64,000 bases of DNA from Dyadobacter sp. 50-39 (GTDB lineage: Bacteria; Bacteroidota; Bacteroidia; Cytophagales; Spirosomataceae). The DNA is taken from the NCBI GenBank assembly GCA_001898145.1, contig MKSR01000006.1, positions 1-64,000 on the forward strand, written 5' to 3'. Below, piece by piece: positions 10,605 through 30,679 of the stretch. The first letter of the stretch is position 1. The number at the start of each line of letters is the position of its first letter. Below the pieces are notes generated by a model. That model saw only the letters and a list, made by a program, of their open reading frames with translations. It was not told the origin of the DNA and did not search any database. A program made the position numbers and the translations under genes.

Positions 10605-11669
10605 ATGAATGATTTGAAAGCAAAAACGGTCTTGTTGATTGAAGACAATGCCCAGGTCCTTGAAAATACGGCCGAAATACTTGAACTGGCCAACTACAAA
10701 GTCCTGACCGCAGTAAATGGTAAACAGGGGGTACAACTGGCGATGGAGCATATCCCAGACCTGATCGTCTGCGATATTATGATGCCCGAGCTGGACGGCT
10801 ATGGTGTGTTACACCTTCTTGGCCGCGATCAGAGAACAGCAGATATTCCTTTCATCTTTCTGACGGCACGTGCTGAAAAAGAAGATTATCGCAAAGGTAT
10901 GGTGATGGGTGCGGACGATTACCTGACTAAACCATTTGACGATGTCGAGCTGCTAAATGCAGTCCAAACCCGACTCGATAAATTCGATCGCATCAAAAAA
11001 TCTTTTGAGCGGTCCGCAGAAGGACTTGACCAATTCCTCTCAGAAGCCAGTGGGCTCAGCGGCCTGGTGGCCAACAAACGGGTTAAGCTTCTCAAAAAGA
11101 AAGAACAGCTGTACTCAGAAGGTAGCTACCCTGCAAGTCTTTTCTTTCTGCAAAAAGGAAAGGTGAAAGAGTTTCGCCGAAACGACCAAGGTAAAGAATA
11201 CATCACCAACCTCTACAAAGAGGGTGATTTTTTCGGCTACCTTGACCTGCTGCACGGCGACAGCTATCAACAATCAGCGGTATGCCTCGAAGCATCTGAG
11301 GTTGCCGTAATTCCCAAGGACGATTTTATCAAACTTTTAGAAGGCAACCGGGCAGTGGCAGCAAAATTTATACGGATTCTGTCCGATAACATACGCGACC
11401 GGGAAGTAAAGCTATTACAGTTGGCTTACAATTCCGTTAGGAAAAGGGTTGCAGAATCGCTGGTCCAGCTGGTGAACCGTTACCAGCAGGACAAATCCAT
11501 GCCATTCACGATGGCTATTTCACGTGAAGACATTGCTTCAATGACCGCCACTGCGACCGAAACAGTGATCCGTGTACTCTCCGATTTCAAGGATGAGCGG
11601 TTAGTTGATCTTAAAGGAAGCAGCATCACGGTACTCGACTACGGAAGGCTAATGAAAATGCGAAATTAG
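10605..11669 (+). CDS. REC-CRP fusion response regulator (cyclic-nucleotide-binding fold plus Crp HTH)
   Basis: The 354-residue protein has an N-terminal receiver domain (1-125) with the acidic pair at 13-14, phosphoacceptor Asp57 in CDIMMPELDG and the TKPF lysine motif. A CRP/FNR beta-roll follows (about 150-260), then a Crp-type winged helix (about 275-350). The recognition helix contains ETVIR, keeping the Glu and Arg that FNR and CRP use to read TGA. There is no N-terminal cysteine cluster, so it is not an iron-sulphur FNR. Its likely targets are the ATGAC-N4-GTCAT boxes described separately. The neighbouring kinase is decayed, so phosphorylation must come from elsewhere, perhaps the hybrid kinase at 4.1-8.0 kb. 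Confidence 0.9.
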   Translation: MNDLKAKTVLLIEDNAQVLENTAEILELANYKVLTAVNGKQGVQLAMEHIPDLIVCDIMMPELDGYGVLHLLGRDQRTADIPFIFLTARAEKEDYRKGMVMGADDYLTKPFDDVELLNAVQTRLDKFDRIKKSFERSAEGLDQFLSEASGLSGLVANKRVKLLKKKEQLYSEGSYPASLFFLQKGKVKEFRRNDQGKEYITNLYKEGDFFGYLDLLHGDSYQQSAVCLEASEVAVIPKDDFIKLLEGNRAVAAKFIRILSDNIRDREVKLLQLAYNSVRKRVAESLVQLVNRYQQDKSMPFTMAISREDIASMTATATETVIRVLSDFKDERLVDLKGSSITVLDYGRLMKMRN

Positions 11670-17190: not shown

Positions 17191-17217
17191 CAGAACTTTG
17201 AATAGTTGATATGGGAA

Positions 17218-17261
17218 TAAAGTTAAAAGGCGCCTGCACGGACATACATGACCAAGGTCAG
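17218..17261 (-). promoter_or_regulatory. Candidate activator box and -7 element for the DUF4136 pseudogene
   Basis: The dyad ATGACCAAGGTCAG is at 17248-17261. On the minus strand the -7-like box TAACTTTA ends at 17218, 36.5 bases from the dyad centre, the same spacing as at five other sites in the island. Activation by the REC-CRP protein is inferred. Confidence 0.55.
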
Positions 17262-17349
17262 TTTGAAAGGGTTCATTAATCATCTTCCAACATTGTGATA
17301 GTTAACAACTTGCGCACAACAACAGGTTAAGCACCAAACCAACCTACAA

Positions 17350-18195
17350 ATGAAAAAAATCCTTGTCCCTTTCGACTTCTCTGCGCTTTCAGTATCTGCA
17401 CTTCTGTTCGCCATCGAGCTGGCCGAAGCGGGCCAAGGCCAGGTTACAGCCCTGCATGTGGTCAATATGACGCCCGCTTACCTGGAAAGTTTGGACCGGG
17501 CCGGATATGCTGCCGGTTCTGCCTCGATATTACGGGGCTTGGGCCGTGAAGCGACTGAAAACTTTGCCAAAGTTAGAGCTGATCTCAGAAGCCGGATTGA
17601 ACCCAGCTTTCGCGTTGAACAGGGGGGATTGCACCAAGCCATAATAAAAACGATCCATGAAATCGAAGCCGACCTGGTCGTGATGGGGACCAACGGCAGT
17701 AGTGGGCTAACGGAAGCATTAATCGGGTCGAATACCGAAAAAATTGTTAGAACTGCGCCCGTACCAATCATCTCTATTCACAAAGACCAGAAGATAAGCC
17801 AGATCCGTAACATCGTCTTCCCTACGGCTATCGATCTTGAACAACATCGCTTTATTTGGCAGCTTCGGGCATTGCAGTCATTTTTCAACGCGCACCTTCA
17901 TTTGCTTTATGTTAAAACACCTGATTCCATCAACACTGACAAGACCTTGACCGGCATGCTTACCGATCTTGGCAACTATTACAGTCTTACCAATTATAGC
18001 GTTCATATCACGCATGCGGCATCCGAAGAAAAAGGGGTTCTCAAATTTGCTGCCCGCATGCCAGCCTCAATGATCGCGATGGCAACGCACGGCTACACAG
18101 GCCTGACCCATCTAATGCTGGGAAGTGTGGCTGAGAACGTTATCAACCACACCAATGAAGCTGTCTGGACGTGGAAGCTTTCCGGGCAATTGTGA
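17350..18195 (+). CDS. Universal stress protein, tandem UspA domains
   Basis: The 281-residue protein has two UspA domains (about 1-148 and 155-278). The first starts MKKILVPFDFSA and carries the nucleotide-binding pattern G-x2-G-x9-G-S as GTNGSSGLTEALIGS. The second keeps most of it as ATHGYTGLTHLMLGS, with the first Gly replaced. Tandem USPs bind ATP or AMP in the cytosol and aid survival during growth arrest. It is one of five such genes in the island and most resembles the protein at 23057-23902. A hairpin follows at 18232-18259. I found no convincing ATGAC-type box reading in its direction. Confidence 0.93.
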   Translation: MKKILVPFDFSALSVSALLFAIELAEAGQGQVTALHVVNMTPAYLESLDRAGYAAGSASILRGLGREATENFAKVRADLRSRIEPSFRVEQGGLHQAIIKTIHEIEADLVVMGTNGSSGLTEALIGSNTEKIVRTAPVPIISIHKDQKISQIRNIVFPTAIDLEQHRFIWQLRALQSFFNAHLHLLYVKTPDSINTDKTLTGMLTDLGNYYSLTNYSVHITHAASEEKGVLKFAARMPASMIAMATHGYTGLTHLMLGSVAENVINHTNEAVWTWKLSGQL

Positions 18196-18231
18196 ATCTC
18201 AATAACATGCATAACTAACCTAAACTAAAAC

Positions 18232-18259
18232 AGGGCCGGCGGTGAAAACTGTTGGCCCT
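18232..18259 (+). terminator. Terminator-like hairpin after the tandem USP gene
   Basis: Arms at 18232-18242 and 18249-18259 pair over 11 positions, including G-U pairs, around a six-base TGAAAA loop. The following T run is weak (CGCTTTATG). It lies 37 bases past the USP stop. Confidence 0.5.
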
Positions 18260-18695
18260 CGCTTTATGTGTAATAGTCACTGCTTGATCTGGGTCTACCA
18301 CAAGTAACTTGCATCGCCCAATGCATGCTTTCCCAGCCTAATAGTCCATATGCCGTCCAGACCACATGCTCCGATTTTATCACTATCAACCTGGTCAGGG
18401 ATTGACAGTTTCCGGACAAAAATTTGTAATTAATTTTTGGGCTAGAAAGTACTTTCAGGGTCCTCACTTTGAAATCCTGTGAGGGTTTATCGTGCGCAAA
18501 GAAGTTTTGAAGCCCTATCTGATTTTCTTCGCCACTAAATATAAGTGTCCATCTACCACGCGGCGATCAATATAATCGCCGCCAAACTGATCTTATTCTG
18601 CTTCACAAAAATAGCTTTGATAAAATCAATGGCTGCTTGAAGATCAAAAAAGCTTGCCGCAAGCAGCTAAAACCTGATGCAGATCATATTCGAAG

Positions 18696-18739
18696 GTAAG
18701 TCCTGTCAAGTTTTTCCAATCATCAGTACGCTTATTTTG
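18696..18739 (+). promoter_or_regulatory. Candidate activator box and -7 element for the CoA-transferase operon
   Basis: The weaker dyad GTAAGTCCTGTCAA (18696-18709) keeps a good right half. A -7-like box TTATTTTG ends at 18739, again 36.5 bases from the dyad centre. A start site near 18744 would leave a leader of about 37 bases before the ATG at 18781. Confidence 0.5.
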
Positions 18740-18768
18740 AGATAGTTAAACAGATTTTAACAATCTCA
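18738..18768. repeat. Imperfect inverted repeat at the CoA-transferase operon start site
   Basis: TGAGATAGTTAA (18738-18749) and TTAACAATCTCA (18757-18768) are complementary at 11 of 12 positions around a 7-base spacer. It spans the predicted start site and leader, so it could be an operator or an mRNA hairpin just before the first start codon. Confidence 0.5.
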
Positions 18769-18780
18769 CCTAGTGGTAAT

Positions 18781-19311
18781 ATGGACTCGCTCAAATTCCT
18801 TGACATGATCTCATGGGCCTTTTACCTGGGCTGTAACGTGTTTGCCGTATGCTTGCTTTGGGCTAGTAAATCACGCCAGCCTCTGGCGCGCCTCATCCTA
18901 TTTTCCCTTTTCCTCTTTGCCGCGGGAGCCAACACCTATATCGCGCTTGATGCGCCATGGAGCTATCGGGATTTTGCCGATACGGCCATGCCTCTTTACA
19001 AACAATTTATAGTCGGGGCCTTTATCCCCATCATCACGCCGATGGTACTTACCATAGCAATATGCCAGCTTTTAATCGCTGTGGCCATGACTGCGACAGG
19101 GCAAATATTTCAGGCTGGCTGCTGGGCCGGGATTATTTTCTGTATTGCCATTGCCCCACTCGGGCTGTATGCTGCTTTTCCCATGCCTTTGCTACTCGCA
19201 TGGGCGATATTCCGCCTTTTGAGGACGGATAAAGACCAAACCAAAGATTCAAATATGCAAAGGCTCAATCAAATAACTAAAAAGCATCATGCACGACCTA
19301 TCGCGAATTAA
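18781..19311 (+). CDS. Four-helix membrane protein of unknown function
   Basis: The 176-residue protein has about four hydrophobic segments (near 8-30, 36-58, 76-106 and 112-146) and a short basic, polar C-terminal tail. No family is recognised. It starts 12 bases after an inverted repeat and overlaps the start of the CoA transferase by 23 bases, so it is the first gene of an operon with the transferase and a USP. A role in the membrane linked to fermentation or acid export is conceivable but rests on position only. Confidence 0.7.
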   Translation: MDSLKFLDMISWAFYLGCNVFAVCLLWASKSRQPLARLILFSLFLFAAGANTYIALDAPWSYRDFADTAMPLYKQFIVGAFIPIITPMVLTIAICQLLIAVAMTATGQIFQAGCWAGIIFCIAIAPLGLYAAFPMPLLLAWAIFRLLRTDKDQTKDSNMQRLNQITKKHHARPIAN

Positions 19312-20800
19312 ACATACTTTACTGGTTACCAAAGTAATGTCAGCCCGCCAGGCTGCCGCTCTGATCCACGACGGAATGGTCGTCGGAGCAAGCGGCTTCA
19401 CCCGCTCGGGCGACAGCAAGGCCGTACTGGCCGCATTGGCCGAAAAAGCCGAATGCGATCATACCCGCATTACCCTGATGACCGGAGCCTCGCTCGGCCA
19501 GGGAACCGATGGCGTGCTGGCCACCGCTGGCGCAATAGTTATGCGGCTGCCATTCCAATCTGATCCGGTCATGCGGACGGTCATCAATCAGGGCGGACTT
19601 TCCTACATCGACGAAAACCTGAGCGAAACCGCAGCACACATCCGCAACGGTTTTTTGCCGCCCATAGACATCGCGATCATCGAAGCGGCCTACATCGAAG
19701 CCGATGGCAGCATCGTACCCACTACGTCCGTGGGCAATTCAGCGATATTTGTACAACAAGCCAGACAGGTGATTGTCGAAATTAACGAGGCGGTACCGGC
19801 CAGTGTCCGCGGCATACACGACGTGTTCCTGCCGGAGGATCCGACAGGCCGGGCGATCCTACCCATTACCGAGGTGTGGCAGCGTATCGGACAGGATGTA
19901 ATCAGCTGTAATCCAGACAAGATTTCGGCCATTGTTTTTACCAATCAAAAGGACAGCCCTGCCGAAACCACAGCCGATAATGCCGTAGCCACTGCCATTG
20001 CCGGGCATTTACTGCATTTTTTTGAAAGCGAAATAGCAGCCGGCAGGCTCACACGAGCGCTCAGGCCTATCCAGGCAGGCATCGGCAAGATCGCCGATGC
20101 CGTTCTCAGCGGACTTGCACAGGGCGACTTCGAGCACCTTACCATGTACTCCGAGGTATTGCAGGACAGTACTTTCCGGCTGATCGACAGCGGCAAGATG
20201 GATTTTGCCTCAGGCAGCTCGATGACCTTGTCAGAAGGTTGCTACCGGCGTGTGTTTGCTGATTTTGAGCATTACCGGCACAAGATCCTGCTACGTCCGC
20301 AGGACATCACCAATGCGGCCGAAATAATCCAGCGGCTGGGCATTATCGCTATCAACACAGCCCTGGAATGCGATATTTATGGGAATGTCAACTCATCCCA
20401 TATCTCCGGTAGCCATATCGTCAACGGCATAGGAGGTTCGGCTGATTTTGCCCAGAACAGCTACCTGAGCATCTTCGTCACCGAGTCCATTACCAAAGGC
20501 GGTAAAATATCACGTATTGTCCCGATGGTAACTCACGTGGATCATTCAGAGCACGATGTGGACGTGATCGTTACCGAGCAAGGGCTTGCCGATTTGCGGG
20601 GGCTATCGCCAAGGCAAAAGGCCCAGGCCATTCTCAGCAGATGCGTGCATCCGGATTACCAGCCGGAACTGGATTCGTATTTCGAGCGCGCTTGCCTTCG
20701 TGGCGGACATACCCCGCATTTGCTGGAAGAAGCGTTCCAGTTCTATACCAATCTGGCCGAAACCGGCGCCATGAAAACCCGTATCCTGGAATCTGTTTAA
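19289..20800 (+). CDS. Acetyl-CoA hydrolase / succinate:acetate CoA-transferase family
   Basis: The 503-residue protein has the two-domain class I CoA-transferase fold. Landmarks are ASGFTRSGDSKAV near the start, the glutamate motif YSEVLQDSTFRLIDSGK that forms the CoA thioester, NGIGGSADFAQNSYLS and VTEQGLADLRGLSP. These match the AarC/Cat1/Ach1 group, which moves CoA between acetate and succinate or hydrolyses acetyl-CoA. In this context it could support acetate formation or succinate/acetate exchange during fermentation. It is translationally coupled to the upstream membrane protein and lies 12 bases before a USP gene. Confidence 0.9.
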   Translation: MHDLSRIKHTLLVTKVMSARQAAALIHDGMVVGASGFTRSGDSKAVLAALAEKAECDHTRITLMTGASLGQGTDGVLATAGAIVMRLPFQSDPVMRTVINQGGLSYIDENLSETAAHIRNGFLPPIDIAIIEAAYIEADGSIVPTTSVGNSAIFVQQARQVIVEINEAVPASVRGIHDVFLPEDPTGRAILPITEVWQRIGQDVISCNPDKISAIVFTNQKDSPAETTADNAVATAIAGHLLHFFESEIAAGRLTRALRPIQAGIGKIADAVLSGLAQGDFEHLTMYSEVLQDSTFRLIDSGKMDFASGSSMTLSEGCYRRVFADFEHYRHKILLRPQDITNAAEIIQRLGIIAINTALECDIYGNVNSSHISGSHIVNGIGGSADFAQNSYLSIFVTESITKGGKISRIVPMVTHVDHSEHDVDVIVTEQGLADLRGLSPRQKAQAILSRCVHPDYQPELDSYFERACLRGGHTPHLLEEAFQFYTNLAETGAMKTRILESV

Positions 20801-20812
20801 ACCGCCTACATT

Positions 20813-21652
20813 ATGAAAAACATCCGCCTGGTGATCGATGCCGGTCACCTTAATACCGATCACATCCAGTTCGCATGCTACATTGCGTCGCTGACACAGT
20901 CGCGACTCACAGCGATTTTCATGCAAAACGAACCCTACCGGCAGATTCCCGAAATGAAACTGGCATTCGGGGCACCATTTACCGAAACAATTACCCTCAA
21001 AGACCTTCCCCACTTTAAGGAAAGCCAGCAGCTGTTGCAAGAAAACCAGGCAACGTTCCGCGCCATCTGCGAACGGCAAGGCGTACATGCCAGTGTGCAT
21101 GAGAACCCGTGCGAGCCCCTTGAACAGATTTTGGCAGAAAGCCGCTTTGCAGACCTGATGATCGTTGGTAGCGACCTGTCCTTCGAGGGTTCGGACGAGA
21201 AAAAGCCCAGCCCATTCCTGCAAGATGTGCTTTGTGCCATAGAATGCCCTGTGATCATCGCCCCGGCTACTTTTGAGGGCGTCGAACAGGTCGTTTTCGC
21301 CTATGATGGCAATGCTGCCGCTGCACATGCGATCAAGCAGTTTTCTTACCTGCTACCCGAGCTCGAAGACACTCGGCTGACGATCGTTCAGGTTGTAGGT
21401 GAAGATGAGCCGGAACAGGCCAACTGCGGCAAACTAGCCCGGCTGATCAGCTCGCACTATTCCAATGCGCATTTCGAGAAACTTCATGGGCGGCCAGGCG
21501 CTGAGCTGTATGCATATTTGATGAACAAGAAAAAAACGCTGGTTGTGATGGGCTCTTATGGCCGCGGCGCGTTTTCGAACCTGCTCACGCCAAGCACTGC
21601 CGATGCGCTGATCCGCAGATTGAACCTGCCGCTATTCATCGCGCATCCATAA
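20813..21652 (+). CDS. Universal stress protein, tandem domains, degenerate nucleotide motifs
   Basis: The 279-residue protein has two UspA-like domains (about 1-145 and 155-278). The first domain has lost the G-x2-G-x9-G-S pattern, reading GSDLSFEGSDEKK. The second is partly retained as GSYGRGAFSNLLTPS. It may not bind ATP like its relatives, and could act as a protein-binding regulator. It is the third gene of the operon starting at 18781, and a strong bidirectional terminator follows at 21671-21701. Confidence 0.88.
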   Translation: MKNIRLVIDAGHLNTDHIQFACYIASLTQSRLTAIFMQNEPYRQIPEMKLAFGAPFTETITLKDLPHFKESQQLLQENQATFRAICERQGVHASVHENPCEPLEQILAESRFADLMIVGSDLSFEGSDEKKPSPFLQDVLCAIECPVIIAPATFEGVEQVVFAYDGNAAAAHAIKQFSYLLPELEDTRLTIVQVVGEDEPEQANCGKLARLISSHYSNAHFEKLHGRPGAELYAYLMNKKKTLVVMGSYGRGAFSNLLTPSTADALIRRLNLPLFIAHP

Positions 21653-21670
21653 ATCATTAAAAACGTGTAA

Positions 21671-21701
21671 GAAAAAAGGCTGCATTGCACTGCCTTTTTT
21701 C
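21671..21701. terminator. Bidirectional intrinsic terminator
   Basis: GAAAAAAGGC (21671-21680) and GCCTTTTTTC (21692-21701) form a perfect 10-bp stem with an 11-base loop, giving a T run on either strand. It separates the converging operons ending at 21652 (plus) and 21718 (minus). Confidence 0.85.
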
Positions 21702-21717
21702 TTTATACTGCACTTCC

Positions 21718-21960
21718 TCACGCTATTTCAAACCAACCTTCACTGCAAAAACGCTGCCGCCCGACAGACCACGTAAGCTGGGCAAGCCAAAAGCCTTTTG
21801 CAAACCGGCGGGTTGAGATGCTCACACGCGGTCCATTGGAGGGAATAATCGGCACGGTAAGACCATCGTCTGACGACTGCCGGGTAAAGGTCACTTCTGC
21901 TTTTGCAAAATACAGTGGCAGTACAAAAGTGACTTTTTCTTGTTCTGCTTGATAGGTCAT
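21718..21960 (-). CDS. Small hypothetical protein at the end of the USP-BON operon
   Basis: An ATG at 21960 gives 80 residues, 12 bases after the USP stop. The protein has alternating strands and ends FAKGFWLAQLTWSVGRQRF, loosely like the C-terminal beta domain of FixH-type proteins, though it lacks their membrane helix. An upstream extension of the frame would overlap the USP gene and looks like a shadow. Evidence that it is a gene is its position, directly before a terminator, and its protein-like composition. Function unknown. Confidence 0.45.
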   Translation of the reverse strand: MTYQAEQEKVTFVLPLYFAKAEVTFTRQSSDDGLTVPIIPSNGPRVSISTRRFAKGFWLAQLTWSVGRQRFCSEGWFEIA

Positions 21961-21971
21961 GGTCGTTAGGT

Positions 21972-22787
21972 TTAATGTGAAATTAACACCTGCCGCAGCG
22001 GGCATGTAAGGACAGGTATTCTGGCATGGTTGACAACGTCCGCTGTGATACTGGGACGAAACATATGGGCAGGGTCTGGATTGCCCAGTGTTCCCATCGC
22101 TATCATATCCGCGCCGATCTGCGCGGCGAATTTGAGTATCGCCTCGGTGATGTCCTCTGCGATTACAACCGATGTTACGCAATGCGAAAGTGCTAGTTTC
22201 TGAGCATATTCTTCGAGCTGCTGAGCAGATGCTCGTCCGATGCCAGGCGCATCAGTGTCAATGTACAGAAGATGAAACCGGCTATCGAGCATTTGAGAAT
22301 ATCTTGAAAGGCAGACGCGCAGTTCCGCTGGATCAGAATGAATATCGACCGGGACTAAAATTTCTGCCGTCCTTGCAAAGTGCGGGCGCTGCTGAATGCT
22401 CAAAACCGGAACCGGAGCTACGCGCACGATCCTTTCGGCGTGTGATCCCATAAAGACGCCGTCCCATCCCCTGGCTCCCCGGGTCCCAACCACAATCAGG
22501 TCAATATGGTGTGTGTCAACCACATCAAGCACAGAATCGACAAAACGCCCCGTCACATGTAATGGGTGGATTTTGATGGCCGGCGGAAAAGCTGAGATCC
22601 ATTGACTAAGCTCGCTACCGGCATTTACCGGCTGCGCCCTGGCTCCAATGTCCTCCTCTACTGTGAGCACAAAAATCTTGACAGGCATTTGCCATTCGAA
22701 TTCTGCGGTAGCTTGCAGTGCCAGCCGGCCAGCTTGCGAGCAATCGAAAGGAACAAGGATACGCAATATATCAGCGGAGTCATCCAT
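21972..22787 (-). CDS. Universal stress protein, tandem domains
   Basis: The 271-residue protein has two UspA domains. The first keeps the nucleotide motif as GTRGARGWDGVFMGS. The second is degenerate, reading GTLGNPDPAHMFRPS. It begins DDSADILRILVPFDCSQAG, so the first strand starts about ten residues in. It lies four bases after the BON gene and belongs to the operon USP-BON-USP-small protein that reads from 23902 to 21718. Confidence 0.9.
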   Translation of the reverse strand: MDDSADILRILVPFDCSQAGRLALQATAEFEWQMPVKIFVLTVEEDIGARAQPVNAGSELSQWISAFPPAIKIHPLHVTGRFVDSVLDVVDTHHIDLIVVGTRGARGWDGVFMGSHAERIVRVAPVPVLSIQQRPHFARTAEILVPVDIHSDPAELRVCLSRYSQMLDSRFHLLYIDTDAPGIGRASAQQLEEYAQKLALSHCVTSVVIAEDITEAILKFAAQIGADMIAMGTLGNPDPAHMFRPSITADVVNHARIPVLTCPLRQVLISH

Positions 22788-22790
22788 AGC

Positions 22791-23054
22791 TCAAATACTT
22801 GTTTGCCGCGGGTAGGTCAGGTTATTGGTGATCCGGCAAACGCCGGCTACATTTTCTATGCGGGTTTGAACCAGCTGCCTGTCCGCTTCGAAGTCGACAT
22901 GACCCTCCAACAGCACCCAGCCGTCGTGAACACTCATATGGATGTCTTGCTCAGGGATGCGCACATCGCGGTGAAGAATGCTGCTGATCTGCTCAGTAAT
23001 AGCCAGGTCGGGAATACAGGTTGTCATAATAAGTCGGGTTTTTAACTGATCCAT
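22791..23054 (-). CDS. BON domain protein
   Basis: The 87-residue protein is essentially one BON domain, with the patterns ITEQISSIL, IHMSVHDGWVLLEGHVDFEADRQLV and VAGVCRITNNL. BON domains bind phospholipid or other hydrophobic ligands and are often in periplasmic or stress proteins. There is no signal peptide, so this one is probably cytosolic. A second possible start is ATG at 23027. It sits between two tandem USP genes with gaps of two and three bases, a pairing common in Bacteroidota and Proteobacteria stress islands. Confidence 0.88.
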   Translation of the reverse strand: MDQLKTRLIMTTCIPDLAITEQISSILHRDVRIPEQDIHMSVHDGWVLLEGHVDFEADRQLVQTRIENVAGVCRITNNLTYPRQTSI

Positions 23055-23056
23055 AT

Positions 23057-23902
23057 TTATTGCATGACATATGTCCAGACAGGCTCCGACAGATGGTTGA
23101 CCACATCTTCGGCAACGCTGCCTTCGGTAAAATGGACGAGCCCTTTATGCCCGTGCGTGCCCATTGCGATGATCGAATTGGGAACACGCCGCGCGTATTT
23201 GAGGATGCCTTCCTGGATATTGAGTCCCCTGCTCACATGAACAGTATAGTCTTTTAACCCGTAAAACAGGGCGTAGCCTTCCAGTTTATGCTCCGCTTCC
23301 TCATCCGATTCCAGGCTAAACGGAAACCCGTTGACAAATAGCAAATGGAGTACTGCACCAAACAATATCTGCAATCCCATAATTTGCTGCACTAAAGGTT
23401 TTTGATCAAGCTCCATCGTGGTCGGGAAGATAATGTTCTTTATCTGATCCAAATGACAGGAGCCATGGATGGCCATGACCGGCACCGGGGATTCCCGGAC
23501 GATTTTCTCGGTATGCGAACCAATAAACAGCTCTTTCAGTCCCGACGCGCCATCTGTTCCCATGATCACCAGGTCAATCTTTTCCCGGGCAATCACATCC
23601 AGCGTCACATCATTTACATAACCGGTTTCCAGAAGCAATTCGGCCCGGTCACCGACGCCAGCCGTTTTCCCTTTCATTTTCTCAAACTCTTTCTCGCTGT
23701 ACGCGATCCAGTCGTCTATCATCGGGATTGGGTCGATGGCAGCGAAAGGCTGCCCAGGCATCCCATTTCCAAAAATCGTCGGAACTTGCATTACTTTCAG
23801 TACCATCACATGACCACCGCAGGCGGTCGCCATCTCGACAGCGAACTGAAAGGCATGCTTCGCCGCTGCCGAAAAATCACAGGGGACAAGTATTCTTTTC
23901 AT
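23057..23902 (-). CDS. Universal stress protein, tandem UspA domains
   Basis: The 281-residue protein starts MKRILVPCDFSAAAKHAF and has intact nucleotide motifs in both halves: GTDGASGLKELFIGS and GTHGHKGLVHFTEGS. It closely resembles the protein at 17350-18195, including the C-terminal NHLSEPVWTYV against NHTNEAVWTWK, so the two arose by duplication. It is the first gene of the USP-BON-USP operon. A candidate activator box and -7 element lie 75-120 bases upstream. Confidence 0.93.
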   Translation of the reverse strand: MKRILVPCDFSAAAKHAFQFAVEMATACGGHVMVLKVMQVPTIFGNGMPGQPFAAIDPIPMIDDWIAYSEKEFEKMKGKTAGVGDRAELLLETGYVNDVTLDVIAREKIDLVIMGTDGASGLKELFIGSHTEKIVRESPVPVMAIHGSCHLDQIKNIIFPTTMELDQKPLVQQIMGLQILFGAVLHLLFVNGFPFSLESDEEAEHKLEGYALFYGLKDYTVHVSRGLNIQEGILKYARRVPNSIIAMGTHGHKGLVHFTEGSVAEDVVNHLSEPVWTYVMQ

Positions 23903-23978
23903 AGGACTGGTGTTTTAGATAAATACATGCGCAACCCTTGTGGTTATACGCCGGGTCTAAATTAAATTCTCACGCTGG

Positions 23979-24022
23979 CAAACAGGATGACAACTGCCAC
24001 CGCAAAATATGACTTCGCTCAG
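23979..24022 (-). promoter_or_regulatory. Candidate activator box and -7 element for the USP-BON operon
   Basis: The dyad ATGACTTCGCTCAG (24009-24022) has one perfect and one weaker half. On the minus strand CCTGTTTG ends at 23979, exactly 36.5 bases from the dyad centre. Activation of the operon starting at 23902 is inferred. Confidence 0.5.
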
Positions 24023-24060
24023 AGCTGATTGACATTCTGAACCTGCCAACGTAATGCAGT

Positions 24061-24633
24061 TTAATCTAATCTGATCTGGCGGGCGAGCCTGGCGACAACT
24101 ATTTCTCTTTGCGCTGCGGTCAGGTACTTAACCCGCCCGATTCTTGACACCTTTACAGGCTTGACTCCACAAAATTCAAGCGTAGCTTTCCTGATCGCCC
24201 TGATATCGCTACTGCGGTACTGCCACCAGAGCCAGATAGCCGGGGCGTCAGAAGTTGCAATGATGTGCGCCGACCTTTTCGTGAGATAGCCATCCCAAAA
24301 AGGTCCCTTTTCATGGTATTTAAATGCAAACCCAGGTAATAAGACACGGTCCAAAAAGCCTTTGAACAACGCAGGAACCGAGCCCCACCACACAGGATAG
24401 ATAATCACCCATTTATCGCACCACAATATGTTCTGCTGGGCCGTAAGCAGATCTTCTTCCAACTCTTGAACTTGGCCGTAGCCATGCCATAAGATTGGGT
24501 CGAAGCGCATCTGCCCAATGTTTTGTCGGCGGACCTGGTAGCCTGCCGACAGCAAGGCTACTTCACAAGCGTCGGCAATATGACCGTTAAAACTCTTAGT
24601 ATCGGGATGGGCCAGTAGTAGGTAAACTTTCAT
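24061..24633 (-). CDS. NAD(P)H:quinone oxidoreductase family (flavodoxin-like)
   Basis: The 190-residue protein has the NQO1/KefF/MdaB fold: LLLAHPDTKSFNG for the FMN phosphate, the NILWCDKWVIIYPVWWGSVPALFKGFLDRVL core, GFAFKYHEKGPF and an SDAPAIWLWWQYRSSD segment. It reduces quinones or other electrophiles by two electrons using NAD(P)H and FMN in the cytosol. An 11-base palindrome, GTGAATTTCAC, lies at 24650-24660 just upstream and may be its operator. A decayed copy lies at 15012-15603. Confidence 0.88.
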   Translation of the reverse strand: MKVYLLLAHPDTKSFNGHIADACEVALLSAGYQVRRQNIGQMRFDPILWHGYGQVQELEEDLLTAQQNILWCDKWVIIYPVWWGSVPALFKGFLDRVLLPGFAFKYHEKGPFWDGYLTKRSAHIIATSDAPAIWLWWQYRSSDIRAIRKATLEFCGVKPVKVSRIGRVKYLTAAQREIVVARLARQIRLD

Positions 24634-24822
24634 TTAGGACTTAAAAATCGTGAATTTCACTGATAGTAATTTTCAGGTTTTACGCCTGCCGACAGATGCC
24701 GGTTTCCAATCGCGCCCCACCGCTGAATTTTACCCTAAAAGACGTCCACTTCCTGGCCGTCATGTTTGCCTTTTCATTTTGTACTTACTGAAAATGCGCA
24801 CTTTAAATAAATCGGCACCGGG

Positions 24823-25185
24823 ATAGTATCACCAGCTTTGACCGGATTAAATCTGCCGGTACCACCTGCTGCGCATCAACGATCTGCTCGATACCGTCAC
24901 GTAATACGATGCACTTTCTGATAGATCAGTTTTTGCAGTTTTCAACCGCCTTGCCTACCTTAAACTCTTGCCAGAAGCTCAAAAGTGCGCTTGCCAGGAT
25001 GATGCAGCCGATAATGAGCGTATCGGAAACTTCACCTAAAAAGGCGGACAAAAATGACTGCTTCCAGCAGCAGCACGAGCGGGCATTTAAACTGATTGAC
25101 TAGATTGGCACGGGCGCGTTGTAGTCTTTGCGCTGGCAGGGCAACTCCCCAAACCGTATTTGTGAAATTGAATCGGCAGCCGACA
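24823..25185 (-). pseudogene. Remnant of a Mg2+-type P-type ATPase (MgtA-like) gene
   Basis: Across frames the minus strand reads AQRLQRARANLVNQFKCPLVLLL, then FLGEVSDTLIIGCIILASALLSFWQEFKVGKAVE, then KCIVLRDGIEQIVDAQQVVPADLI. These match the first membrane pair and the start of the actuator domain of MgtA-type ATPases. Single-base indels in T and A runs and a stop break the frame, and the rest of the gene, about 750 codons, is missing. It lies between the quinone oxidoreductase and the alcohol dehydrogenase genes. Confidence 0.72.
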
Positions 25186-25189
25186 TACG

Positions 25190-26215
25190 CTACATGGTCA
25201 TCACAACCCGCCCTTCGATACGGCCCGCCTTCATATCGTCAAATATGCTATTGATCTCTTCCAGCCGTGCGGTGTGAACGGTCGCTTTTACTTTACCATC
25301 GAGCGCAAAGCCGACGGCCTCCTGCATATCCTTGCGTGTGCCGACAATCGACCCGCGTATAGTATGCCGGTTGAGAACGGTTTGAAAAATAGGCAGATCA
25401 AAACTGCCCGGCGGTAGGCCGGTCAGCGCCATGGTGCCCTTTTTACGCAGCGCCGAAATTCCCTGCTGAAAAGCCACCGGTGAAACCGCTGTGATCAGCA
25501 CGCCGTGCATACCGCCGGTCCGGGTTTTCAAGAAAGCTCCGGGATCTTCCTGCATGGCATTTACTGTGAGATCTGCTCCTAGCCGCTGGGCCAGTTCGAG
25601 CTTTTCGTCACTTACATCCATGGCTGCCACGTGCATTCCCATGGCTTTCGCATATTGCACTGCCAGGTGTCCCAAACCACCGATCCCGGAAATGGCTACC
25701 CACTCCCCTGCTTTCGTCTCGGTCTCTTTGAGTCCTTTATACACGGTTACGCCTGCACACAAGATCGGCGCCATACCAATCATATCCGTACCAGACGGCA
25801 GGTGCGCCACATAGCGCGCGTCAGCGAGTACATACTCTGCATAGCTGCCATCGACGCTGTAACCGCCGTTCTGCTGAGCGTCGCAAAGCGTCTCCCATCC
25901 GGTAATGCAATATTCGCAGCAGCCGCAGGCGCTGTACAGCCAGGGCACGCCTACAATGTCGCCTTCTTTGACCCCGGTGACCTGTGGCCCTATTGCAGCA
26001 ATATAGCCGATGCCCTCGTGACCAGGTATGAGCGGCAACTGCGGCTTAACAGGCCAGTCGCCATCGGTGGCGTGCAGGTCGGTATGACACACGCCGCTGG
26101 CAACGATCTTAACCAGGACCTGGTGATTACTAGGGCGCCGCACAGCAACTTCTTCTATTTGTAGCGGTTTGCCGAACTGACGGACGACCGCCGCTTTCAT
26201 GGTTTGAGGCAACAT
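25190..26215 (-). CDS. adhP: Zinc-dependent alcohol dehydrogenase (AdhP type)
   Basis: I chose the ATG at 26215 (341 residues); the frame is open 50 codons further upstream, but that part would cover the promoter boxes and does not resemble the family. The protein has the catalytic zinc ligands in GVCHTDLH and GHEGIGYI, the four-cysteine structural zinc loop in CGCCEYCITGWETLC, and the NAD site GIGGLGH. Length and pattern match propanol-preferring AdhP enzymes. It interconverts ethanol and acetaldehyde with NAD(H) and here probably reoxidises NADH. It is divergent from a USP gene, with two candidate activator boxes between them. Confidence 0.92.
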   Translation of the reverse strand: MLPQTMKAAVVRQFGKPLQIEEVAVRRPSNHQVLVKIVASGVCHTDLHATDGDWPVKPQLPLIPGHEGIGYIAAIGPQVTGVKEGDIVGVPWLYSACGCCEYCITGWETLCDAQQNGGYSVDGSYAEYVLADARYVAHLPSGTDMIGMAPILCAGVTVYKGLKETETKAGEWVAISGIGGLGHLAVQYAKAMGMHVAAMDVSDEKLELAQRLGADLTVNAMQEDPGAFLKTRTGGMHGVLITAVSPVAFQQGISALRKKGTMALTGLPPGSFDLPIFQTVLNRHTIRGSIVGTRKDMQEAVGFALDGKVKATVHTARLEEINSIFDDMKAGRIEGRVVMTM

Positions 26216-26245
26216 AATGGTTTGCTTTTCAGGTGGACTGTGCCG

Positions 26246-26289
26246 TAAAGTTGGCCATTTGGTGCGCGCATGATCATGACTGCCGTCAA
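26246..26289 (-). promoter_or_regulatory. Candidate activator box and -7 element for the alcohol dehydrogenase
   Basis: The dyad ATGACTGCCGTCAA (26276-26289) has nine of ten consensus bases. On the minus strand the -7-like CAACTTTA ends at 26246, 36.5 bases from the dyad centre, leaving a leader of about 25 bases before the ATG at 26215. Confidence 0.6.
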
Positions 26290-26358
26290 CTTTAAACATG
26301 ACTGTGATACGGCGCGTCAAGTATCGCCTGTAGTTGAAAGCATTTGTCATAATCCCGC

Positions 26359-26402
26359 ATGACATGCGTCATACATCCACCCAGCGGACAGGCTGAAATT
26401 TG
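26359..26402 (+). promoter_or_regulatory. Candidate activator box and -7 element for the USP gene at 26447
   Basis: The dyad ATGACATGCGTCAT (26359-26372) has two perfect five-base half-sites. GAAATTTG (26395-26402) matches the Bacteroidota -7 consensus at five of six defined bases and ends 36.5 bases from the dyad centre. Confidence 0.65.
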
Positions 26403-26446
26403 GGTGCAAAATCGTACCATCTTGCGTCCATTCAAGTCATCTGAAC

Positions 26447-27280
26447 ATGAGAAAAATCCTTGTACCCACCGATTTCTCTGAGAATGCCGAAAAGGCCCTC
26501 TCTTTCGCCATCCGCATTGCTGATAAAACGAAGGCGCAGCTATTGATGCTTTTTGTATATCATCCGTATATCAACGACGTCGCGTTACCGGAGTACATCG
26601 GTTCACTGGAAATATATAAAGAGCTCGAAGCGTCGTACCGCGAAAAGCTCGATGAAGCCGTGGCGCTGGCGCGTCATCGGGGAATAAATGCCGAAGGGAT
26701 TTGGGCTACCGGCGGGACCCAACCTGCGATTCTTCATACTGCACGCCAGAACGAGGTGGACCTGATCGTGATGGGAAGAACCGGACAAGGCGGCTTTCTG
26801 GATAAATTACTTGGAAGCAACAGTGCTTCCATCGCAACCGAGGCAGACTGCGCAGTGCTGGTCATTCCGCCAATGGCAGCGGACGCGGACTTTAACAATA
26901 TCGTCTACGCTACCCAGCTGGAGTTTGACAAAAAACCGACGCTCGAGCAAGCCATCGGGCTGGCCCGGCAACTTAAGGCGCGCATAACATTTTTGAAAAT
27001 CAATTCAGATGAGCAGCTTGACATCCAGTCAGATGCCCAGTATATCATGGAAATGAAGGAATCCTTTGGCATCGCATCCGAGGATATCACGATCCGCAAT
27101 GCACAAAGTGTTCTAAGGGGCCTTCAGGCGCATTGCCATCAGACACGTGCCGATATGCTGATTTTGTGCAGACGCGACAAGGATTTGTTGCAAACGATTT
27201 TGAACGGCCCCGGCCTTACCAGCAAACTTGCGCTCGCAACGGATACGCCACTTCTCGTATATCATCTGAAAGATGCATAA
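26447..27280 (+). CDS. Universal stress protein, tandem domains
   Basis: The 277-residue protein starts MRKILVPTDFSENAEKAL. The first domain keeps the nucleotide motif as GRTGQGGFLDKLLGS, while the second is degenerate, reading CRRDKDLLQTILNG. It is the fifth tandem USP of the island and the least like the others. It is divergent from the alcohol dehydrogenase, with a perfect activator box 75-88 bases upstream. Its last codons overlap the start of the broken CPBP gene by eight bases. Confidence 0.92.
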   Translation: MRKILVPTDFSENAEKALSFAIRIADKTKAQLLMLFVYHPYINDVALPEYIGSLEIYKELEASYREKLDEAVALARHRGINAEGIWATGGTQPAILHTARQNEVDLIVMGRTGQGGFLDKLLGSNSASIATEADCAVLVIPPMAADADFNNIVYATQLEFDKKPTLEQAIGLARQLKARITFLKINSDEQLDIQSDAQYIMEMKESFGIASEDITIRNAQSVLRGLQAHCHQTRADMLILCRRDKDLLQTILNGPGLTSKLALATDTPLLVYHLKDA

Positions 27281-28087
27281 AGGCCAACCAACGAATTTAG
27301 ATGAGTCGGCTCGAAACGAATCCAAAGCGGTGATCGTCTTTATAATAACGACATTCGTGGTTTCCTGGATCCTTTGGATGCCGCTGGCAATCGATGCAAT
27401 TTTCAAGACTCACACACCTCGTTTGCCCGGTCAGTTTTTTCTGGCCTCCTTCGGGCCGCTTGCAGGAGGTATCGCGGCCAGTTACTATCGGGGGGGACAG
27501 AGCGGATTGACAGCCTGGCTGCGTGCCATCTTTCGCTTTCGGCTGAGTCCAAAAATCTACTACCTGATCAGCGCAATGCTAACCGCATATTTTCTGATAA
27601 GCTTATTAACTATTTGGATCTGCACGGGTACGCTCAATTCCTTAAGGTTTTTAGGGGATACAGAAAAACTGCCCGGAGTGCCCCATGTATTGGTTTTAGG
27701 CGTGTGGATGCTCGTTTTGGCATGGGGGAAGAATCCGGTTGGCGCGGCTGGCTTTACGCCGTTCTTATTAAAAAGCATTCACACGTCCAGGCCGCCTCTT
27801 GGGTAGCAGCTCTATGGATGCTCTGGCATTTGCCAGCGTTTGCATTTAACGAAAGCTACCAGAAAATGGGTTGGGGAGTCATCGGCTGGGTAATCAGCCT
27901 CTTCTATGGGTCTGTCCTACTCGGTTGGCTATTTCTCAAATCGGGCAGCGTCATTCCGTTAATCATCTGGCACGGGGTATTCGATCTGATCACCGCCAGT
28001 GACCACTTGCCCGATCTGGTGCCGGCCGTAATCAGCGGTGTTGTAATCATGCAAGGTATTTACCTGATCGGAAAACCCAGCTGGTAA
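27273..28087 (+). pseudogene. CPBP family intramembrane protease, frameshifted
   Basis: The first part, read from 27273, gives membrane segments (KAVIVFIITTFVVSWILWMP and FLASFGPLAGGIAASYY). The second part, in the next frame, gives EESGWRGWLY with the CPBP Glu-Glu-x3-Arg motif, then WMLWHLPAF and IIWHGVFDL with the other conserved His residues. The frames join at the T run 27715-27718, where one more T would restore a protein of about 271 residues. It is either a recent pseudogene or a base-call error. It is coupled to the upstream USP by an eight-base overlap. Family members are membrane proteases, some modifying prenylated proteins or giving bacteriocin immunity. Confidence 0.8.
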
Positions 28088-28118
28088 CTAAGCGAATCTC
28101 CGTCTTCCATTCGAATGT

Positions 28119-28139
28119 TTCGCCGTATTCTACGGCGAA
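28119..28139. terminator. Perfect hairpin downstream of the CPBP gene
   Basis: TTCGCCGTA (28119-28127) and TACGGCGAA (28131-28139) form a perfect nine-base-pair stem with a three-base loop, 32 bases after the CPBP stop. There is no T run, so termination is only probable. Confidence 0.4.
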
Positions 28140-28257
28140 CTTGTGCTTGTGGTTACGACCAGAAGCGTCTCGTATTGCGCCTGGGCGATGTGGATCAGTG
28201 GATCGTTGATCATCGCAAGGGCGATGTCAATCCGTTGCTTTCGCTACCGGAAAGCTG
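28130..28257 (-). pseudogene. Fragment of an ABC transporter ATP-binding protein
   Basis: On the minus strand QLSGSE appears from 28257. After a one-base shift it continues KQRIDIALAMINDPLI, the signature-motif and Walker B approach region of LolD/MacB-type ATPases (compare LSGGEQQR and ARALINDP). The Walker B acidic residues and everything around them are missing. It is a short remnant only and could be chance resemblance. Confidence 0.4.
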
Positions 28258-28461
28258 ATTGGGTCTTTTTAAGTTAGTTGGTGTATGTCCAGCGAGCCAA
28301 GCTTCCCATATGCTCGATTTGAGCAGTCTACCAGCGCTGGGCATAAGCGCAGCGGATATCACATTGTGAAGGACGGAATTTGACTGCGCATAAGGACATA
28401 AGGAAAACCAGCCGCTTTTTTGGAATTTAAAATATCACATTCGCCCCAAAAACTGAACCCC

Positions 28462-29211
28462 TTATTGGGCCAGGTAACCACCGTCAACCGGATAGTATGA
28501 CCCATTCACAAAAGAAGCCTTCTCGCTACTCAGCCAAAGCACCAACTCGGCAACCTCTTCCGGCTCACCCATTCGTCCCACCGGGTGCTTGGCTATCAAC
28601 CAATCAAATGTCTGATTGTCTAAATCTTTCAACAACGGTGTTTTGATAAATGCAGGGCCTACTGCATTGGCACGAATTCCTCTGGCGCCATATTCCAGCG
28701 CAATGTTCTTGGTAAGTCCAAGCAAGCCGTGCTTAGCCGCGACATAAGCCGGACTATTTGCGAACCCAACACTGCCAAGGATGGAAGCCATGTTCACAAT
28801 CGCTCCCCCACCCGAACTAAGCATGGCCGGAATCTGATGGCGCACTCCGTAAAATACCCCTGACAGGTTCACCGCGATAACTTTATCCCAGGCATCTACC
28901 GGGTACATGCCAGTAGGTGCCATCGCTCCGCCAATCCCCGCATTGTTGCACGCGATGTGTACTGCACCATATTTGTCAATAGTGCTCCAAACAAGCGCCT
29001 GGTTATCCTCCGGTGAAGACACATCGCATTTGACAAAAAAACTATCTCCGCCTAGGTGAGTGATTTGTTGCACCGTATCCCGGCCAGAGTCCTCATCCAG
29101 ATCAGAAACGACCACTTTTGCACCGTGCCTCGCATAGACAAGCGCAACGCTACGCCCGATACCCGAGCCTGCCCCGGTAACGATGGCGACTTTATCCTGT
29201 AATATCTTCAT
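28462..29211 (-). CDS. SDR family oxidoreductase
   Basis: The 249-residue protein is a classical short-chain dehydrogenase: the cofactor motif TGAGSGIG, DLDEDSG for nucleotide choice, NNAG, and the catalytic Ser-Tyr-Lys with YVAAKHG. The C-terminal FVNGSYYPVDGGYLAQ is typical. The acidic residue after the second strand suggests NAD+ rather than NADP+. The substrate cannot be assigned; close families include glucose 1-dehydrogenases and 3-oxoacyl reductase-like proteins. It lies downstream of the 291-residue gene on the same strand, 38 bases away, and may be cotranscribed with it. Confidence 0.9.
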   Translation of the reverse strand: MKILQDKVAIVTGAGSGIGRSVALVYARHGAKVVVSDLDEDSGRDTVQQITHLGGDSFFVKCDVSSPEDNQALVWSTIDKYGAVHIACNNAGIGGAMAPTGMYPVDAWDKVIAVNLSGVFYGVRHQIPAMLSSGGGAIVNMASILGSVGFANSPAYVAAKHGLLGLTKNIALEYGARGIRANAVGPAFIKTPLLKDLDNQTFDWLIAKHPVGRMGEPEEVAELVLWLSSEKASFVNGSYYPVDGGYLAQ

Positions 29212-29249
29212 GTGTTTTTATGGATTGTTAAATACCTATGCTCAAATGG

Positions 29250-30125
29250 TCACAACGCCTGATTGAACCGGATTTCTGTGATTGCAAAACGCGCATATGG
29301 AAAATATCCTTCCGGCAATTCCCAAGCTGCTTCCAATACCATTGGTATCAGCACACCATCACGAAGCTGGTAGTCACTCACAGTAGTCACCCATTTCTGC
29401 CGTGGCCCATCGCCCAAATTTCTCATCGAGATCATGCGCTCTATTTCATGATTTTCATTGAAAGTGACCATGAAATTGATTTGGGTACCCTGATAACTAT
29501 ATTCGAGCCTGGCAGACCGCTCATCAATCGGGCACCATTTCAGGGCTGCAGAAGGCAGCAGATTGGTAGGAAAGCAAACGCTTTCCCCTAACCAGCGCAT
29601 CAGTTCCCCTCGGTTTAATTCAGGACCTTGGCTATCAACGAATTTTATAATAGAAAAAAGCGATACAATCAGACGGCCTTCGCCATTGATAAACATATCC
29701 CGGGCGGTAAAAGCGGCAGTTTTGCCCATCCATACAAAGCCGGGCCGGTCGGCCGTAAAATACTCTTTTCCAATTATTGGCCGCCAGTCCTTTTTCAGGT
29801 CGGTCTTAAAGAATCCCGTATGTGAGAGAACTACGTTGCTGATATAGGGCTGTCCGGATTTCAAAACCCGTCTAAAATACAGCTGAACGGGTTCGGGGAG
29901 CCCATCGAGCTGCCTATAATCGAATACTTTATGAGAAATTGGCGTCTCGTTCGCTATCAATCTTGCAACGTCGTCGTTGAATTGCCAATTGGATTTCACC
30001 TTACCCACGGAGATAAGCATCAAGAGTAAAATGCCTAAACCTAGTCCCCATTTTGCGAAAGCGGGAAATGTATACTTCAATATATTTGAAGCGCTTTGCT
30101 TGAAAACCGATCGATAAGTATTCAT
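29250..30125 (-). CDS. Hypothetical membrane-anchored protein (DUF6544-like)
   Basis: The 291-residue protein has one N-terminal membrane helix (about 27-45, GLGLGILLLMLISVG) followed by a soluble domain. Patterns such as LPEPVQLYFRRVL, QPYISNVVLSHTGFFKT, FVWMGK and NRGELMRWLGE recur in an uncharacterised family often placed in DUF6544/DUF6920, and such proteins commonly neighbour SDR genes. The soluble part probably faces the periplasm. No catalytic residues are known to me. It is the probable first gene of a two-gene unit with the SDR. Confidence 0.65.
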   Translation of the reverse strand: MNTYRSVFKQSASNILKYTFPAFAKWGLGLGILLLMLISVGKVKSNWQFNDDVARLIANETPISHKVFDYRQLDGLPEPVQLYFRRVLKSGQPYISNVVLSHTGFFKTDLKKDWRPIIGKEYFTADRPGFVWMGKTAAFTARDMFINGEGRLIVSLFSIIKFVDSQGPELNRGELMRWLGESVCFPTNLLPSAALKWCPIDERSARLEYSYQGTQINFMVTFNENHEIERMISMRNLGDGPRQKWVTTVSDYQLRDGVLIPMVLEAAWELPEGYFPYARFAITEIRFNQAL

Positions 30126-30274
30126 ATGCTTATATCTGAAATGTACCTTGCCAAAAAACCATCACATCTTTATTTCTGACCCGAGTGGCATCAAATAGTC
30201 AATTAAATAGCAGCTCAAATGTGGACACCAAGCCAAGCGGTTTTCAATCCTTTTACTAGCTCTTGATTCGCACC

Positions 30275-30613
30275 TTAGTCACGAAAAATCAGTGCAGCTG
30301 ACTTTGCCATTGCAAAATATAAGACGACGATAAGGACAAGCGCATTCACAAGGGTGCCAAACCTTGCTTGGTCCCATACTGAAACAATCATGAACTGCGA
30401 GAAAATCACAGACGCGATAGCGATCCACAGCCATTGTCCTTTGTCGAGCAAAAACAATATGCTCGTCATTAAAAAAAGAACAAAACAAACCAGCCATAAA
30501 ATGCTGGGCGTTTTGTCGGTCACTATTGGCCGGCCTGTATCAGGGCTTATAAAGCCTACCAGATGGATCAAACCGTGAAGCAGCAACAGGGCGAAAAGCA
30601 AGTAGCGTAGCAT
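30275..30613 (-). CDS. Small four-helix membrane protein
   Basis: I start at the ATG at 30613 (112 residues); a TTG at 30622 would add three. Four hydrophobic segments fill most of the chain (near 2-22, 33-52, 56-78 and 84-104), with short loops and the motif LHGLIHLVGF in the first helix. No named family is recognised. It has one of the two perfect ATGAC-N4-GTCAT boxes of the window upstream, with a good -7 box, so it is predicted to belong to the same regulon as the USP and alcohol dehydrogenase genes. Confidence 0.7.
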   Translation of the reverse strand: MLRYLLFALLLLHGLIHLVGFISPDTGRPIVTDKTPSILWLVCFVLFLMTSILFLLDKGQWLWIAIASVIFSQFMIVSVWDQARFGTLVNALVLIVVLYFAMAKSAALIFRD

Positions 30614-30635
30614 TTTTGTCAAGATAGTTACTCGA

Positions 30636-30679
30636 CAAAAGTGGCCGCTTTACAGGCGGAAAATTATGACAAGTGTCAT
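30636..30679 (-). promoter_or_regulatory. Candidate activator box and -7 element for the small membrane protein
   Basis: The dyad ATGACAAGTGTCAT (30666-30679) has two perfect half-sites. On the minus strand CACTTTTG (30643-30636) matches five of six defined -7 bases and ends 36.5 bases from the dyad centre, the same geometry as at 26359-26402. Confidence 0.65.

Follow-up and report, generated by a model that had tools for sequence, protein, structure and literature searches.

The closest described relatives of the system considered here are the low-oxygen regulators of the Crp/Fnr superfamily. In the Alphaproteobacteria these are distributed by taxon between FixK proteins, which are without an iron-sulfur cluster and are driven by FixLJ, and FnrN proteins, which have such a cluster; in the Rhizobiales one general site profile has been used for both, with cco, hemA and hemN among the targets (PMC4999443). 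We are concerned here with a 64,000-nucleotide stretch of DNA from Dyadobacter sp. 50-39 (contig MKSR01000006.1, positions 1 to 64,000), called the window, to which all plain coordinates refer; labels such as C1, C2 and C48 denote contigs of the same 7.7 Mb genome. The window contains six inverted repeats, or dyads, at a constant distance from promoter-like -7 boxes, and it encodes a protein, REC-CRP, in which a receiver domain is joined to a Crp-type DNA-binding part. From sequence comparison we consider it probable that the dyads are operators of a REC-CRP activator driven by a FixL-like PAS kinase, and that they define a low-oxygen regulon.

Several known operators serve for comparison. The FNR/FixK operator is TTGAT-N4-ATCAA, with T as its outer base, and that of Escherichia coli CRP is TGTGA-N6-TCACA. 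DNR and NnrR sites (TTGAC-N4-GTCAA) have the inner TGAC and the N4 spacer of the dyads described here, but their outer base differs, and the targets here are not mainly denitrification genes. The DosR hypoxia regulon has heme-based kinases and, as here, is rich in universal stress protein (USP) genes, but its regulator is of the LuxR type with an unrelated operator. Little, to our knowledge, has been described of how free-living Bacteroidota adjust gene expression to oxygen, and a literature search judged by titles and the beginnings of abstracts, with most subscription papers and preprints outside its coverage, found no work on this system.

The likeness to FixL-FixJ-FixK lies in a FixL-like PAS kinase gene beside the regulator gene and in the targets cco, hemA and hemN, which are also those given for FnrN/FixK (PMC4999443). 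The two systems differ in that the receiver and the Crp/Fnr DNA-binding part are fused in REC-CRP, so that no FixJ-to-fixK transcription step would be needed; the sites attributed to REC-CRP also differ from those of FixK in having an outer A, a TAnnTTTG promoter and, in many genera, a second operator 22 bp upstream. With FNR and FnrN the system shares the Crp/Fnr fold, the N4-spaced dyad, the predicted class II position and the apparent low-oxygen targets, and a protein with four invariant cysteines is found in the six site-rich genomes that gave no REC-CRP match. Unlike FNR and FnrN, REC-CRP has a receiver in place of the N-terminal cysteine cluster, and its loci lack FNR-type sites at the characteristic spacing, as detailed below.

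Spacing, conservation and tandem operators

An earlier note on this DNA had reported dyads at 17248, 18696, 24009, 26276, 26359 and 30666, each with a TTTG or TTTA box that ends 36.5 bases away from the centre of the dyad, on the strand of the downstream unit. A direct check of the letters found all six dyads at these positions, and the constant spacing, equivalent to 26 bases between the dyad 14-mer and the box (gap 26), holds at every one. The grading of the dyads stood in part: those at 26359 and 30666 are perfect, as described, but there are two with nine of ten bases (17248 and 26276) where a single one had been counted, and the weaker ones are 24009 (eight) and 18696 (six of ten).

The dyad alone was rejected as a signal, being found at chance frequency both in the window (28 with at most two mismatches, against 25.4 expected) and in the genome, where perfect dyads occur at eight places and the reversed control gives seven. 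TTTG at gap 26 accompanies five of these eight perfect dyads (5 of 16 orientations; P from 1e-7 to 3e-6), and three of six when the two window sites from which the rule was derived are left out (3 of 12 orientations; P from 1e-4 to 8e-4). For the looser form TGA-N6-TCA, 5 of the 62 oriented dyads in the window have TTTG or TTTA at gap 26, with a mean of 0.8 and a maximum of 3 at other gaps. When the window was scanned for the core TGAC-N4-GTCA at gap 26 (and 48), the six sites were among the seven best. The full core is present in four window sites against a mean of 0.01 in first-order Markov copies, a comparison that is partly circular, and a consistency check as opposed to a blind test, since the core string derives from the earlier note's dyads; gap 26 came from the same source, and gap 48 from other genera.

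In the whole genome the composite of dyad and box with two mismatches proved too loose to be of use (120, against 100 in the reversed control). At most one mismatch leaves 15 composites, the window members being the two perfect dyads and those with boxes at 17218 and 26246. Gene-linked composites outside the window (names by eye) precede an acyl-ACP desaturase-like gene (C36), a small membrane protein paralog (C47:128055), hemN (C48:186109), an alcohol dehydrogenase (ADH) paralog (C1), a hemA-like gene (C12) and a small secreted protein gene (C27); the composites at C48:140718, C10, C40 and C47:448653 have no clear target gene behind them.

The earlier note would have been contradicted by a composite as common in control DNA, and the opposite was found: the 48 Dyadobacter genomes hold 286 composites with at most one mismatch against 124 in the reversed control, with 39 genomes above their control, 6 below and 3 equal. 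The composite is also kept before orthologous hemN genes. The REC-CRP copy on C48 lies among genes for a fused ccoNO, a ccoP-like protein, members of the FixG and FixH families, DsbD_2, hemN and a PAS histidine kinase, and within the locus limits the same gene order is found in two other loci (L072, L081); the run from ccoNO through hemN is present in five of eight named Dyadobacter loci, in part in one, and in neither of two others (L142, L144). The hemN promoter carries the composite in all 19 loci of one set and in the nine Dyadobacter loci with hemN in another. With four more loci added to these sets, it is found with at most two mismatches in 30 of 32 Dyadobacter hemN promoters, L270 having three mismatches and L269 no site; this count drops four loci in which a regular expression found no hemN (L070, L127, L136, L268) and covers the genus only, thus leaving aside L119. 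In 27 non-redundant hemN promoters the information content is 1.57 bits in the dyad halves, 1.86 in the GTTTT behind the dyad and 1.81 in the -7 box, whereas the spacer of the dyad has 0.32 and the linker 0.43.

In hemN promoters (L069-L088 and others) a AAAGTAAGTTTT-like element is also conserved, some 22 bp ahead of the dyad; it occupies the place of the second dyad of other genera and is different from it. Two nearly complete Dyadobacter genomes, G015 and G060, gave no hemN match at 1e-100; G015 also gave no REC-CRP match among the 35 of 114 candidates scored, G015 being the one of the two that this search covered. These may be natural losses of the module, and their composites (3 against 0 in the control for G015, 2 against 2 for G060) are too few to weigh.

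To look beyond the genus, we collected the best 80 named matches to a profile of 11 REC-CRP proteins. These loci come from Bacteroidota taxa, except one from an uncultured bacterium (L153) and one from a metagenome-assembled genome labelled Alphaproteobacteria (L149); ccoNO is present in 26, hemN in 14 and a USP gene in 34. Outside Dyadobacter there are 72 such loci (1.25 Mb), and in these the spacing between TGA-N6-TCA and TTTG shows two sharp peaks, gap 26 with 113 occurrences and gap 48 with 102, against a mean of 14. The two peaks reflect tandem operators, for 76 promoters have both, where 1.4 would be expected if the two were independent. The A of TAnnTTTG, which lay outside the selection criteria, is present in 95% of 74 non-redundant tandem sites, and no -33 element stands out in them. 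Of the 130 dyads of the form ATGAY-N4-RTCAT in the 72 loci, 20 are at gap 26. The corresponding figures are 0 of 30 for TTGAY-N4-RTCAA, which has the outer T-A pair of the FNR/FixK operator, and 0 of 28 for GTGA-N6-TCAC, the form of the E. coli CRP operator, and both consensus sites were rejected as the true motif. The operator would be centred near -41.5, the position of a class II activator, with a second near -63.5; both values assume the usual distance from a -7 box to the start, and -41.5 depends on the assignment of that box.

Regulator, kinase and their co-occurrence with the sites

The candidate reader of the dyads is the REC-CRP gene at 10605..11669 on the forward strand, whose product consists of a receiver, a cNMP-binding fold and a Crp-type helix-turn-helix (Pfam Response_reg, cNMP_binding and HTH_Crp_2). 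It has the features of the Crp/Fnr superfamily, with PF00027 and PF13545 above cut-off, and its relatives in the PDB by sequence are 2gau, FNR, CRP, FixK2 and DNR. In an alignment of 11 REC-CRP proteins E319, V321, I322 and R323 of the recognition helix are invariant, and we take the Glu and Arg to read the GA of the half-site. In the receiver domain (PF00072) D54 and K106, presumably the phospho-acceptor Asp and the conserved Lys, are invariant and T84 is nearly so; the receiver stands where FNR has its N-terminal cysteine cluster, and no such cluster was found in REC-CRP. Matches at 1e-40 were obtained in 34 of the 36 other Dyadobacter genomes searched and in 44 of 59 genomes overall. The genome of Dyadobacter sp. 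50-39 has three REC-CRP genes, the window copy and those on C2 (85% identical) and C48 (70%), and a Crp protein of 217 residues encoded beside nosZ on C2 also carries an RVETVIR helix; the protein acting on the window sites may be any of these.

A test of co-occurrence was possible in 296 genomes of the phylum, and here the sites track the REC-CRP gene, as the earlier note's reading implies. Tandem sites with at most two mismatches number 287 against 8 in the control in the 43 genomes with REC-CRP, and 125 against 13 in the 253 others; four or more are found in 28 of the 43 and in 6 of the 253. One of 44 initial matches (G338) has the Crp part only and is counted among the 253. At most seven candidates per genome were scored for REC-CRP and nine for the FNR-like protein described next, so that with the E-value cut-offs regulators may be missed and absences are not certain.

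In each of the six exceptions there is a receiver-less Crp/Fnr protein, about 236 residues long, with FNR-like cysteines. An alignment of eight receiver-less proteins has invariant C10, C13, C59 and C112 and a helix of the form E-x-x-I-R. Divided by regulator, the 412 sites fall as follows: 178 in 26 genomes with REC-CRP and no FNR-like match, 109 in 17 genomes with both, 58 in 7 genomes with a strong FNR-like match only (these being the six exceptions and G086 by construction, since the profile was built from them), 14 in 35 genomes with a weaker FNR-like match only, and 53 in 211 genomes with neither. In the genome of Dyadobacter sp. 50-39 there was no FNR-like match at 1e-60 among the 9 of 19 candidates scored. 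We lean towards a reading in which one operator code serves a low-oxygen regulon throughout the Bacteroidota. The sensor heads of the Crp/Fnr proteins that read this code would be interchangeable, either a receiver fed by a FixL-like heme-PAS kinase or an FNR-like cysteine cluster according to lineage, and the operators would be retained when one sensor takes the place of the other. Such a replacement may be a natural experiment comparable with FixK and FnrN of the Alphaproteobacteria (PMC4999443), except that here the receiver is fused to the DNA-binding part. In a tree of the Crp parts the outgroup branches were too long to show whether REC-CRP and the FNR-like proteins are sisters.

As to the signal, 78 of the best 80 named loci have a PAS kinase gene no more than 400 nt upstream of REC-CRP, which is evidence of linkage only. 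The PAS domain of one kinase outside the genus (L119) matches the heme PAS of FixL (5.9e-30), and both the heme His and the distal Arg align; that of the Dyadobacter kinase encoded by the C48 cluster (L069) has 10jx as its best solved relative (2.6e-14), the other 13 of its 14 matches being FixL or DosP/heme PAS domains (3.5e-13 to 1.3e-9). A proximal His and a distal Arg are the marks of a FixL-type heme PAS, and these matches make oxygen the likely signal. A low-oxygen role also appears from the neighbours of REC-CRP genes and from the targets in other Bacteroidota.

The proposed mechanism is that at low oxygen the PAS kinase would phosphorylate REC-CRP, which would then bind TGA[C/T]-N4-[G/A]TCA at a site near -41.5, joined in many genera by another near -63.5. 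It would thereby recruit RNA polymerase to a promoter of the form TAnnTTTG, in which no -33 element is evident. The genes predicted to be switched on are those for the high-affinity cbb3 oxidase and its assembly, hemN, hemA, USPs, a BON protein, a fermentative ADH and a CoA-transferase and, at some loci, that for the kinase. This yields a testable regulator-kinase pair, an operator with an exact promoter geometry and a list of targets over many genera.

Points against the proposal and rival explanations

The earlier note's interpretation of the dyads as a regulon of the REC-CRP type is supported by the control scans, the conservation at hemN and the co-occurrence, and a number of results weigh against it. 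The hemN genes of L269, within Dyadobacter, and of L119, in another family, have no site; C48:140718, one of the five exact composites of the genome, is among those with no clear gene behind; and no such PAS kinase gene adjoins the REC-CRP gene of the window. The Dyadobacter kinase PAS has the His aligned and lacks the distal Arg of FixL, and among eight aligned kinases the His is present in seven, the Arg in four and both in three. The genomes are related, so that the counts are inflated and not independent. In one family (f25) 12 of the 15 REC-CRP genomes have no tandem site or a single one, an FNR-like match being present as well in 8 of the 12. Single sites in the 12 number 213 against 30 in the control, and in the four without an FNR-like match 46 against 4; they are also frequent in seven f25 genomes with only an FNR-like match (123 against 13), and there is a slight excess in five with neither (22 against 10).

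The 26-base spacing, moreover, recurs at GTGAC-N4-GTCAC sites that are linked to a different Crp/Fnr gene, and REC-CRP was accordingly rejected as the sole owner of this spacing. These sites, with gap 26 to TTTG or TTTA, were observed at C46:9500-29400, C13:130000-140000 and C37:60000-68000 (L283, L284 and L285), before genes that by eye resemble those for a persulfide dioxygenase, a sulfite exporter, SQR, a YeeE-like transporter and a peroxiredoxin; on C13 a Crp/Fnr-like gene of 214 codons has back-to-back GTGAT/C sites beside it. They probably form a separate sulfur regulon under another Crp/Fnr protein. Their presence in the same genome gives some substance to the idea that the layout is a general class II geometry of Crp/Fnr proteins in Bacteroidota, the window sites being under several regulators and forming no single regulon. 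We consider this unlikely: the window sites and the sites that track REC-CRP have a common inner core and overlapping targets such as USP and BON genes, while GTGAY-N4-RTCAC is rare in the 72 REC-CRP loci, with eight oriented occurrences and none at gap 26.

A second alternative assigns the dyads to another Crp/Fnr protein of this genome, for example the C2 Crp by nosZ or the one on C1 by the ADH paralog, with REC-CRP a mere neighbour. The shared RVETVIR helix of the former, the position of the latter next to an ADH gene with a site, and the 19 candidates for Crp-like proteins that a first look at this genome returned all speak for it, but the sites track REC-CRP across the 296 genomes, the kinase/REC-CRP pair lies within the cluster whose hemN promoter has the site, and in other genera the kinase gene itself has one; we regard this assignment as quite unlikely. 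Finally, chance dyads picked by eye, with the spacing noticed afterwards, would fit the chance frequency of dyads without a box and the figures for the loose composite, but are contradicted by the perfect dyads outside the window, the reversed controls in 48 and 296 genomes, the tandem peak and the conservation, and deserve almost no credence.

Sites and target genes

The wider target set attributed to REC-CRP comprises 114 proteins. Each is the longest frame with a start no more than 220 nt from a tandem or full-core site, and repeats enter the count once. Loci collected because they contain REC-CRP supplied 84 of them, so that genes near REC-CRP are over-represented, and a pattern search supplied the other 30. 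Apart from one protein of the pattern search, which is from the present genome (L243), all are from outside the genus. Pfam families among them are Usp (17), E1-E2 ATPase (9), COX1 (8), histidine kinase (7), glutamyl-tRNA reductase (6), FixO (5), DoxX (5), radical SAM (4), FixS (3), YceI (3), FixG (2) and HSP20 (2).

In the window, the perfect dyad ATGACATGCGTCAT at 26359..26372 on the forward strand, with its TTTG box at 26399..26402, precedes a USP-like gene (26447-27280), and the other perfect dyad, ATGACACTTGTCAT at 30666..30679 on the reverse strand, with TTTG at 30636..30639, precedes a small membrane protein gene (30275-30622), whose paralog at C47:128055 has the same layout. Also on the reverse strand, the dyad CTGAGCGAAGTCAT (24009..24022; 7 of 8 core bases) and its TTTG box (23979..23982) precede a USP-like, a BON and a second USP-like gene (23057-23902, 22791-23054 and 21972-22787), of which the BON gene is named by Pfam and its two neighbours by eye. 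These three dyads, like the other three of the earlier note, have a predicted position near -41.5.

The weak dyad at 18696..18709 (GTAAGTCCTGTCAA, forward strand) is followed by the -7 box TTATTTTG (18732..18739) and by genes for a membrane protein without a Pfam family (18781), a CoA-transferase (19289) and a USP (20813). To the six dyads of the earlier note can be added a second, upstream dyad, CTGATGCAGATCAT, at 18674..18687 on the same strand, near -63.5. This 14-mer, TGATGCAGATCA, is located exactly 22 bp upstream of the weak site, which can therefore be understood as half of a tandem; a paralogous CoA-transferase-like gene at C47:161973 is preceded by the same tandem layout.

One target in the earlier note is doubtful. 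On the reverse strand the dyad CTGACCTTGGTCAT (17248..17261; core 8 of 8) has its -7 box, TAACTTTA, at 17218..17225, and the downstream unit would be a DUF4136 frame at 16829-17245; this frame begins between dyad and box, which makes it a doubtful target, and its Pfam score of 30.6 is under the cut-off of 32.8. The ADH is retained as a target of the reverse-strand dyad TTGACGGCAGTCAT (26276..26289; core 8 of 8) with its TTTA box at 26246..26249, although this dyad sits within the longest ADH frame; the start that is common with the C1 paralog (MLPQTMKAAVV) falls 3' of the box. That paralog, at C1:134894 (L014), is preceded by a similar composite site, and a Crp/Fnr-like gene of 219 codons adjoins it.

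Two further observations concern the surroundings of the REC-CRP genes. An island like that of the window is found at C2:7000-26000 (L070), with nosZ, a Crp/Fnr gene and the C2 copy of REC-CRP, together with an oleate-hydratase-like gene in two frames and D-lactate-dehydrogenase-like and quinone-reductase-like genes (names partly by eye). In the window itself, 15200-15601 appears by eye to be a degenerate, truncated version of another gene of the window, the flavodoxin-fold quinone-reductase-like one at 24061-24633.

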